Source: Lophium mytilinum (Eukaryota; Ascomycota; Dothideomycetes; Mytilinidiales; Mytilinidiaceae). Taken from it: DNA of 64,000 bases. The position numbers and the translations under genes were made by a program. How positions within the stretch are numbered: the first letter of the stretch is position 1; each line of letters starts with the position of its first letter. The DNA is taken from contig MU004184.1 in the NCBI GenBank assembly GCA_010093605.1, positions 126,179 through 190,178 on the forward strand. The letters run 5' to 3'. The notes under the pieces were generated by a model. That model ran no database searches and had not been told where the DNA came from. It saw nothing but the letters and a program-made list of their open reading frames with translations. Positions 16,220-55,673 of the stretch are shown here, piece after piece.

Positions 16220-17290
16220 GAGCAACTGAGGTGGGCGAGAAGAGTGGATATTATGGTGGGATGGGACGTGATTGATATGGTAGAGCGACCCGAGTGTGCT
16301 TCGGCGGGGGACGCGACCCAGACCCGAGAGTCACGTGAGGCTATCGCCTACGTCGCATTCCCGCTGGAGATATAGAGTAGCATATCCCTGCCCATGTATC
16401 CATGGTTCCTTGAGGCATCTTGGTAGAAGTCAGTTTCGCAACGAGATTTGCTAAGCCTCGATCTTGACGTTCAATCACGGTCGTCTTTGCAGCGGCCGGA
16501 GCATCCATAAATCAGCCTGCACGCTCTCAAAAGAACAGCCAACTCCACTTCTTCTGAATCCATCAGGGGTACGGCGTTCTTAATATGCTATCGCTCTAGA
16601 TAATGTAGTTCCAAATCTCTTGCATATTACGTTTACCCATTTCTTGCCCACGCCCACCGGAGAGTCTACATACATGTACAAAGGCTTATAGAAAGGGTCT
16701 AGACCCGCTTTCTAAGACGTCTTCTGTGAAACGTCTTTCAAACAAGTTCGTAGCCGAGAGTACGACTTTGTAGCCCTGGGACAAAGCATTCACTAGCGCG
16801 CCAAATGCGACGTTCAGATTGTCTACAAACCTTCCTATACAGGTTCAAGAGCAATATCTACGTACTTGACTTACATACTTGCTGTCAAGCTAATGTAATG
16901 GTCGCCGAGTCATAGCTTAGAGTGCAATTCAAAGGTGCGTGGTCGTGACTTTCACACGTGCTTAGCCCGCTTCGCCCTAGGCGTGGACAAATTGACACAG
17001 GCGAAGCCTGAGTCGCAACTTGATTTCATGCAAGCCATAGACTCAGCTCTATTAAGCCCAGTGACGCCCCTCTGTGCGGGAAGATTACTAGTTGAGTGTA
17101 AAATAGAGGCGGCAATGCGCAAGTCCTCGCAGTAGCACAAGGACAGGCTAAATTGAACGTGAAAGACGCACAATAACTGTTAAAGGCATCGGCGGTAATC
17201 GTGCGCAGGTGCTCTAGGGCAGCAGAAGGGTTGTGCAGCCGGCGTTAAGCCGTAGTAGTGGCCCAATAATAACAAACGCGCACTGACCCC
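16220..17290. other. No gene recognised
   Basis: Short frames only. No recognisable protein motif, repeat or RNA gene before the U6 promoter. Confidence 0.45.
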
Positions 17291-17304: not shown

Positions 17305-17310
17305 TATATA
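17305..17310 (+). promoter_or_regulatory. TATA box of U6 copy A
   Basis: TATATA lies 29 bp upstream of the conserved CGCCTTCGGGC stem-loop of U6. A TATA box at about -30 is typical of RNA polymerase III U6 promoters. Copy B has the same element at nearly the same distance (28 bp). Confidence 0.75.
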
Positions 17311-17330: not shown

Positions 17331-17437
17331 CTTCGCCTTCGGGCATTTGGTCAATTTGAAACAACACAGAGAAGATTAGCATGGCCCCTGCACTAAGGAT
17401 GACACGCTTTATCAAAGAGTAGCTTCAAAATTTTTTT
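17331..17437 (+). ncRNA. U6: U6 spliceosomal snRNA, copy A (intronless)
   Basis: U6 is the catalytic snRNA of the spliceosome, transcribed by RNA polymerase III. All hallmarks are present: 5' stem-loop GCCTTCGGGC with UUCG tetraloop, GGTCAATTTGAAACAACACA, the ACAGAGA box at 17366-17372, the AGC triad at 17378-17380, GGCCCCTGCACTAAGGATGA with the U4-pairing and ISL region, and a T8 terminator at 17431-17438. The 5' end is placed from the TATA distance and is uncertain by a few bases. The RNA is uninterrupted, unlike copy B at 55.6 kb. Confidence 0.95.
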
Positions 17438-17462: not shown

Positions 17463-17472
17463 GGTTCGAGCC
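17463..17472 (+). promoter_or_regulatory. Downstream B-box of U6 copy A
   Basis: GGTTCGAGCC matches the RNA polymerase III B-box (core GTTCGANNC) and begins 24 bp after the T-run. Yeast SNR6 likewise uses a B-box downstream of its terminator. The identical ten bases follow copy B at nearly the same distance. Confidence 0.7.
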
Positions 17473-55460: not shown

Positions 55461-55470
55461 GGCTCGAACC
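55461..55470 (-). promoter_or_regulatory. Downstream B-box of U6 copy B
   Basis: GGTTCGAGCC on the minus strand begins 21 bases beyond the T-run, as in copy A. Confidence 0.7.
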
Positions 55471-55492
55471 TCATCCAGCCAAACAAAACACA

Positions 55493-55648
55493 AAAAAATT
55501 TTTTAAGCTACTCTTTGATAAAGCGTGTCATCCTTAGTGCAGGGGCCATGCTAATCTGACAGATATTAGTTTTGAAGCTGAGTGTTAGGGGGGATAGTGC
55601 ACACCTTCTCTGTGTTGTTTCAAATTGACCAAATGCCCGAAGGCGGAG
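55493..55648 (-). ncRNA. U6: U6 spliceosomal snRNA, copy B, interrupted by an intron
   Basis: Exon 1 (about 55648-55605) has the UUCG stem-loop, GGTCAATTTGAAACAACACA and the ACAGAGA box at 55613-55607. Exon 2 (55555 to about 55493) starts ATTAGCATGGCCCC, with the AGC triad at 55552-55550, and ends in a T7 run. Removing bases 55604-55556 gives an RNA identical to copy A from the stem-loop to the last few bases (AGCTTAAAAAA here, AGCTTCAAAA there). TATA, terminator and B-box are all intact, so it may be expressed and spliced, unless the insertion killed it. Confidence 0.92.
55556..55604 (-). other. 49-nt spliceosomal-type intron inside U6 copy B
   Basis: Starts GTGTGC and ends GTCAG, with a branch-site match ACTAAT whose branch A (55566) lies 10 nt from the 3' end; a second CTAAC occurs at 55588. 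It sits immediately after ACAGAGAAG. The coding-strand sequence has no run of more than two T, so RNA polymerase III would not stop in it. Confidence 0.88.
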
Positions 55649-55666: not shown

Positions 55667-55673
55667 ATATATA
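55667..55673 (-). promoter_or_regulatory. TATA box of U6 copy B
   Basis: TATATAT on the minus strand, 28 bp before the conserved CGCCTTCGGGC stem-loop, the same spacing as in copy A within one base. Confidence 0.75.

Follow-up and report, generated by a model that had tools for sequence, protein, structure and literature searches.

Spliceosomal-type introns in U6 and other small nuclear RNA genes of the fungus Lophium mytilinum

The U6 intron of Schizosaccharomyces pombe was reportedly described by Tani and Ohshima in 1989, and Canzler, Stadler and Hertel are said to have catalogued fungal U6 introns in 2016, with repeated insertion. An intron in the U2 gene of Rhodotorula hasegawae was reportedly found by Takahashi in 1993. 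Introns in U1, U5 and U6 are also reported for that fungus. In Schizosaccharomyces the U6 introns contain a B box, while in budding yeast the B box of the U6 gene lies downstream of the terminator. U6 introns are recorded for fission yeast and other fungi (PMC10484740, PMC5832005), the S. pombe intron being described in the former; a Trichoderma reesei U6 promoter with the first intron is tabulated in PMC9518982. For fungal U3 snoRNA, PMC5832005 places 133 of 138 introns in the 5' half.

The window analysed here is a stretch of 64,000 nt of a contig of Lophium mytilinum (Dothideomycetes, Mytilinidiales). One of its ORFs has a single protein match, in Mytilinidion resinicola at 85% identity, and another a single match to a Lophium mytilinum protein, at 75% identity over 57% of the ORF. 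The window contains two U6 genes, the sole matches above the gathering threshold in an Rfam scan (RF00026; cut-off 44 bits, exceeded by both). The forward-strand match (17335-17434) scores 86.5 bits (E 1.1e-20) and the minus-strand match (55644-55494) 56.1 bits (E 1.9e-11), the latter with 49 inserted bases. The initial annotation, which gave no strand, had proposed that this second copy is cut after ACAGAGAAG by 49 nt with GT...AG ends and an ACTAAT branch site, and that removal of the insert restores the copy at 17.3 kb. The Rfam alignment and the sequence bear out the insert, which reads GTGTGC...ACTAATATCTGTCAG. Once it is excised, nt 1-86 equal the intact copy with 0 edits, leaving ACAGAGA and the downstream core intact. 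The restoration is exact over these 86 nt; the 3' tails of the two copies are unlike (AGCTTAAAAAATTTTT versus AGCTTCAAAATTTT). Table 1 lists the parts of both genes. It is very probable that the minus-strand copy functions as a U6 gene transcribed by Pol III and split by a spliceosomal intron of the ordinary kind, as are six further copies in the genome.

Table 1. Features of the two U6 genes in the window
Feature	Position	Strand	Basis
Intron-bearing copy: TATA box at -29	55668..55673	-	hexamer scan
Intron-bearing copy: exon 1, 40 nt, 5' hairpin to ACAGAGAAG; identical to intact copy	55605..55644	-	RF00026 alignment
Intron-bearing copy: spliceosomal-type intron, 49 nt, GTGTGC...CAG	55556..55604	-	RF00026 alignment, sequence, splice-signal tally
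Intron-bearing copy: ACTAAT, motif of the branch site, its branch A (55566) 10 nt from the intron end	55565..55570	-	signal tally
Intron-bearing copy: exon 2	55494..55555	-	Rfam alignment
Intron-bearing copy: T-run, likely Pol III terminator	55492..55498	-	sequence and element scan
Intron-bearing copy: downstream B box GTTCGAGCC	55461..55469	-	GTTCRANNC scan
Intronless copy: upstream element CACTGACC	17281..17288	+	element scan
Intronless copy: TATA box	17305..17310	+	hexamer scan
Intronless copy: U6	17335..17434	+	Rfam alignment
Intronless copy: downstream B box GTTCGAGCC	17464..17472	+	GTTCRANNC scan

Splice signals were tallied in 27 snRNA introns of the genome, RCTRAY being sought 6-36 nt before YAG, with shuffled interiors as a control. 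All 27 introns end in YAG, 20 have GTRWGT donors, and 26 have an RCTRAY branch motif at 10-14 nt, compared with 4.9% of shuffled interiors. The single intron without the branch motif, in the U4 copy L037, counts against the reading of these inserts as spliceosomal introns, and two U4 introns start with a GC donor. In the window intron the branch site ACTAAT conforms to RCTRAY at 10 nt before the end and is followed by CAG (YAG); the donor GTGTGC departs from GTRWGT at the last position, making this copy one of two misfits among the seven U6 introns. A length of 49 nt is far below that of group I and group II self-splicing introns, and no family with a group I or II catalytic core is among the Rfam matches of the window at the gathering threshold. 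GTRWGT donors and RCTRAY branch sites are given as fungal consensus forms, and GC donors as a known minority form, in PMC5832005.

A whole-genome search with the Rfam U6 model, which the initial annotation had suggested as a check, returned at least 21 matches above cut-off. All 21 sequences were inspected; seven carry the intron (L014, L015, L016, L018, L019, L020, which is the window copy, and L021), always at the same site and 48-51 nt long, and 14 are intronless. The description of the window copies as a rare natural pair therefore does not stand. The initial proposal of a spliceosomal intron beside ACAGAGA is itself well supported by the splice signals, the restoration, the conserved exons and the Pol III elements; what it understated is the extent, since 7 of 21 U6 matches are affected and introns are also present in U1, U2 and U4. 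As an observation on gene arrangement, snRNA genes crowd a region of the window's contig, C4:49-463 kb, where they are dispersed and not in tandem; it holds 8/21 U6, 4/9 U2, 2/6 U4, 1/3 U5 and 1/16 U1 matches.

Measured against the main U6 sequence over nt 1-86, the spliced exons have 0 edits in five of the intron-bearing copies, one in L018 and two in L014. The intronless copies include five with 0 edits, one with two and eight with 6-15, so that all eight degenerate copies are intronless and the intron-bearing genes are among the best preserved. Mean pairwise identity among the seven is 0.93 in the exons and tail and 0.85 in the intron, falling to 0.41 in the upstream 130 nt and 0.35 in the downstream 130 nt. 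Exons with 0-2 edits between flanks that have drifted so far argue that these copies are unlikely to be dead insertions. Exon identity could partly reflect gene conversion with intronless copies and not selection on each copy. Within the intron, the C-rich 5' half is variable and the 3' core CACTCAGCTTCAAAACTAAYATCT is invariant apart from Y.

Changes in four of the intronless copies (L010, L012, L013 and L017) cluster just 5' of or in ACAGAGA, with the 3' part nearly intact; a TATA box is present in all four and a B box in three. Another intronless copy, L011, has within the gene a T8 run at which Pol III transcription should stop.

A TATA-like hexamer lies 28-31 nt upstream of 20 of the 21 U6 genes, being missing in L014, and GTTCRANNC occurs 10-38 nt beyond the T-run in 17/21 (reverse-strand control, 0/21); no perfect B box was found for L009, L012, L014 and L018. 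Both window copies have the TATA box, T-run and B box. The element CACTGACC accompanies 9/21 U6 genes and, of the window pair, the intronless copy only. Because the distance between B box and terminator is constant, the box is about 50 nt farther from the start in the intron-bearing genes. Inspection by eye of the seven U6 introns revealed no GTTCRANNC, the nearest sequence being CTTCAAAAC, one base off. The intron core was considered as an internal B box, from which it differs by one mismatch; a perfect box lies downstream in five of the seven genes. The core sequence AGCTTCAAAA, which equals the U6 3' end, was considered as a mimic of the telestem partner and rejected, as single-sequence folding gave pairing probabilities of 0.00-0.25 over the seven copies. 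A U5 copy, L044 (C4:82780-82886), ends in T6 followed by GTTCGAGCC, a Pol III-like arrangement that possibly reflects a changed promoter class.

Introns are not confined to U6. The genome family search gave nine U2 matches, of which eight have a first intron between AGCTCTCTT and TGCC, one of these (L062) being a degenerate copy. In the ninth, L033, AGCTCTCTT and TGCC are joined without an intron, and the copy is otherwise diverged. A second U2 intron, in L034, L035 and L036 (3/9), lies directly 3' of GTAGTAT. Family and pattern searches located six U4 loci in the genome, and all six are interrupted, by inserts of 53-68 nt; five are split after ATCCTAGTGCAAG (CATG in L040) and L037 four bases earlier. 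Ungapped searches of the genome at up to 3 mismatches found no uninterrupted U4 and no uninterrupted standard U2, the diverged L033 being invisible to the U2 pattern. The 16 U1 matches are all below the family cut-off and were all inspected: three (L064, L065, L066) are split after ATACTT, L067 appears by eye to be a degenerate fourth split copy that the intron pattern did not match, and twelve, some of them degenerate, are without such an intron. None of the three U5 matches has an intron, and a loop pattern with up to 1 mismatch gives only these three copies. The family searches score the best candidates only, and parts of the genome may be absent from the assembly; an snRNA copy may therefore have been missed in these counts.

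The exon parts are conserved, whereas mean identity is 52% for the first U2 intron (seven of eight), 55% for the second (three) and 62% for the U4 intron (six). As to the roles of the split elements, the first U2 site belongs to the U2 side of U2/U6 helix II, and GTAGTAT, which the second intron adjoins, is the branch-binding element; the U4 sites fall where U4 pairs with U6 in stem II, and the U1 site is within the sequence recognising 5' splice sites. In an energy model, the U4/U6 duplex is at -24 to -25 kcal/mol with spliced U4 and at -10 to -19 with unspliced U4, in 6/6 copies; on this model, splicing restores U4/U6 stem II. The difference is small for the U2/U6 3'-end duplex (helix II), at -13 spliced against -10 unspliced in the seven tested, which is a weak point for the preferred reading. 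No uninterrupted U4 was found and the fungus needs U4, which makes it very probable that the U4 introns are spliced, and probable that L. mytilinum splices its own U4.

The U2 and U4 model matches start inside the 3' end of the intron, treating it as the start of the RNA, a warning that 5' ends can be misplaced when snRNAs are annotated. The flanks of U1, U2 and U4 share a 3' element, TTTTTCATTGA...CTCGCCTTGTGCGGG...TTGAAGAAGA, perhaps a signal for RNA 3'-end processing, and TAGCGCTGATGAGT is found upstream of several U2 copies and of the U1 copy L051.

On the preferred reading, the TATA box and the B box downstream would drive transcription of the intron-bearing U6 gene of the window, the transcript would terminate at the T-run, and splicing would yield mature U6. 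The spliceosomes responsible would draw their own U6 from intronless copies or from other intron-bearing ones. Transcripts of U4, of most U2 and of some U1 genes would likewise be spliced, and assembly of the spliceosome would then need prior spliceosome activity.

As to origin, excised introns may have been reverse-spliced into snRNAs in the spliceosome, with subsequent reverse transcription and recombination. This is compatible with the preferred reading, and we regard it as possible but rather unlikely. In its favour, the six sites (U1 after ATACTT, the U2 helix II strand, U2 after GTAGTATCT, two in U4 stem II and U6 after ACAGAGAAG) fall within, or border on, elements that pair with pre-mRNA or another snRNA, and the three U5 copies have no intron. 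The chance of all sites falling in such elements is 6e-4 (five sites) to 1e-4 (six), a rough and post hoc figure based on assumed lengths, and the element boundaries were set after the data had been seen. Against this origin, four of the six sites are no more than about 14 nt from the 5' end of the RNA, and the introns of U3 snoRNA, which works outside the spliceosome, crowd towards the 5' end too, according to PMC5832005, so that site position alone is no proof of reverse splicing.

A broader form of this idea seems improbable: introns would move as RNA from one snRNA gene to another, excised introns being reverse-spliced into the elements by which U1, U2, U4 and U6 pair, and one intron would have passed between U2 and U4; the spliceosome would thus rewrite its own RNA genes and be self-dependent for U4. 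The exchange between U2 and U4 concerns the first U2 intron of L036 and the U4 intron of L040, whose alignment score of 27 exceeds the maximum of 25 in whole-intron shuffles (0/300 reach 27); when only the stretch 5' of the branch site is compared, the best score is 20, a value reached by 3/300 shuffles. Against 124 kb of other genome DNA, from which the window's own U6 intron was set aside, the L036 and L040 introns reach 18 and the U4 intron of L042 reaches 20; the first set used for the U2/U4 comparison comprised just 10 intron-like stretches. The likeness suggests, but does not prove, a shared origin of the L036 and L040 introns.

It is very unlikely that the intron-bearing U6 copies are pseudogenes and that the intronless copies alone work. 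Perfect intronless copies do exist (5 of 14 with 0 edits), L014 is without both TATA box and B box, and the window copy combines an off-consensus donor with an altered 3' tail. The exons of the seven nevertheless match those of the best intronless copies in conservation, the degenerate copies are all intronless, a TATA box is kept in 6/7 and a perfect downstream B box in 5/7, and the 3' core of the intron is near-invariant beside a variable 5' half.

Least likely is that the 49 nt are one copy of a mobile or introner-like insertion family: the same core recurs at seven U6 loci and the L036 U2 intron resembles the L040 U4 intron beyond dinucleotide shuffles, but the core pattern is confined to these loci when up to 3 mismatches are allowed, and other pairs of snRNA intron groups score 14-20, the range of single introns against the 124 kb of other DNA. 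The initial annotation had noted that finding the 49 bp elsewhere as a repeat would change the interpretation; a 27-nt pattern from the 3' part of the intron, searched over the whole genome with as many as 3 mismatches allowed, 2 of which occur in the window copy, matched at the seven U6 sites only, with 0 matches elsewhere and 0 for the reversed pattern. Exact-pattern relatives numbered 0 in viral contigs and in bacterial and archaeal genomes, a result silent on distribution among fungi.

To trace the history of the U6 intron, the intron sequence was left out and a tree was built from the rest of the 21 copies, together with 200 bootstrap trees. Intron presence requires six changes on the tree, against a mean of 6.0-6.1 for shuffled labels, and a single-change history is allowed by 0% of the bootstrap trees. 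The tree is weakly supported, with 11/18 inner branches open, and its well-supported branches force at least two changes. Since the seven introns align, at 85% mean identity, the intron was probably gained once, its presence then being reshuffled among the copies by precise loss or gene conversion, although the same intron may have been inserted repeatedly.

U6 introns were already known; what the sequences add is that many snRNA genes of L. mytilinum apparently carry introns whose removal would fall to its own spliceosome. If these are spliced, there is no U4, nor any U2 except the diverged L033, without a working spliceosome, and one cell must hand this self-dependence on to the next. With its 7 interrupted and 14 uninterrupted members, the mixed U6 family offers a natural comparison for studying the entry of introns into snRNA genes and their loss, and for asking whether introns are really gained through reverse splicing into spliceosomal RNAs. 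A limited search of the open-licence literature found no report of U4 introns.

Among described systems, S. pombe U6 likewise has an mRNA-type intron near the catalytic nucleotides; L. mytilinum differs in that seven interrupted and fourteen intronless U6 genes coexist. The fungal U6 introns reportedly catalogued by Canzler et al. are of the same kind and include those of filamentous ascomycetes. The B box, inside the intron in Schizosaccharomyces, is downstream of the terminator in L. mytilinum, as in budding yeast. Rhodotorula hasegawae is similar in that several snRNA genes of one fungus have spliceosomal introns, U1, U5 and U6 among them; L. mytilinum differs in being a filamentous ascomycete, in having its U4 genes split and in carrying two introns in some U2 genes. 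Fungal U3 snoRNA genes, as presented in PMC5832005, offer a further parallel: the introns of this small structured RNA are normal spliceosomal ones, with intron-bearing and intronless paralogues mixed and with positions that vary slightly in Dothideomycetes. U3 is not a part of the spliceosome, and its introns entail no self-dependence.
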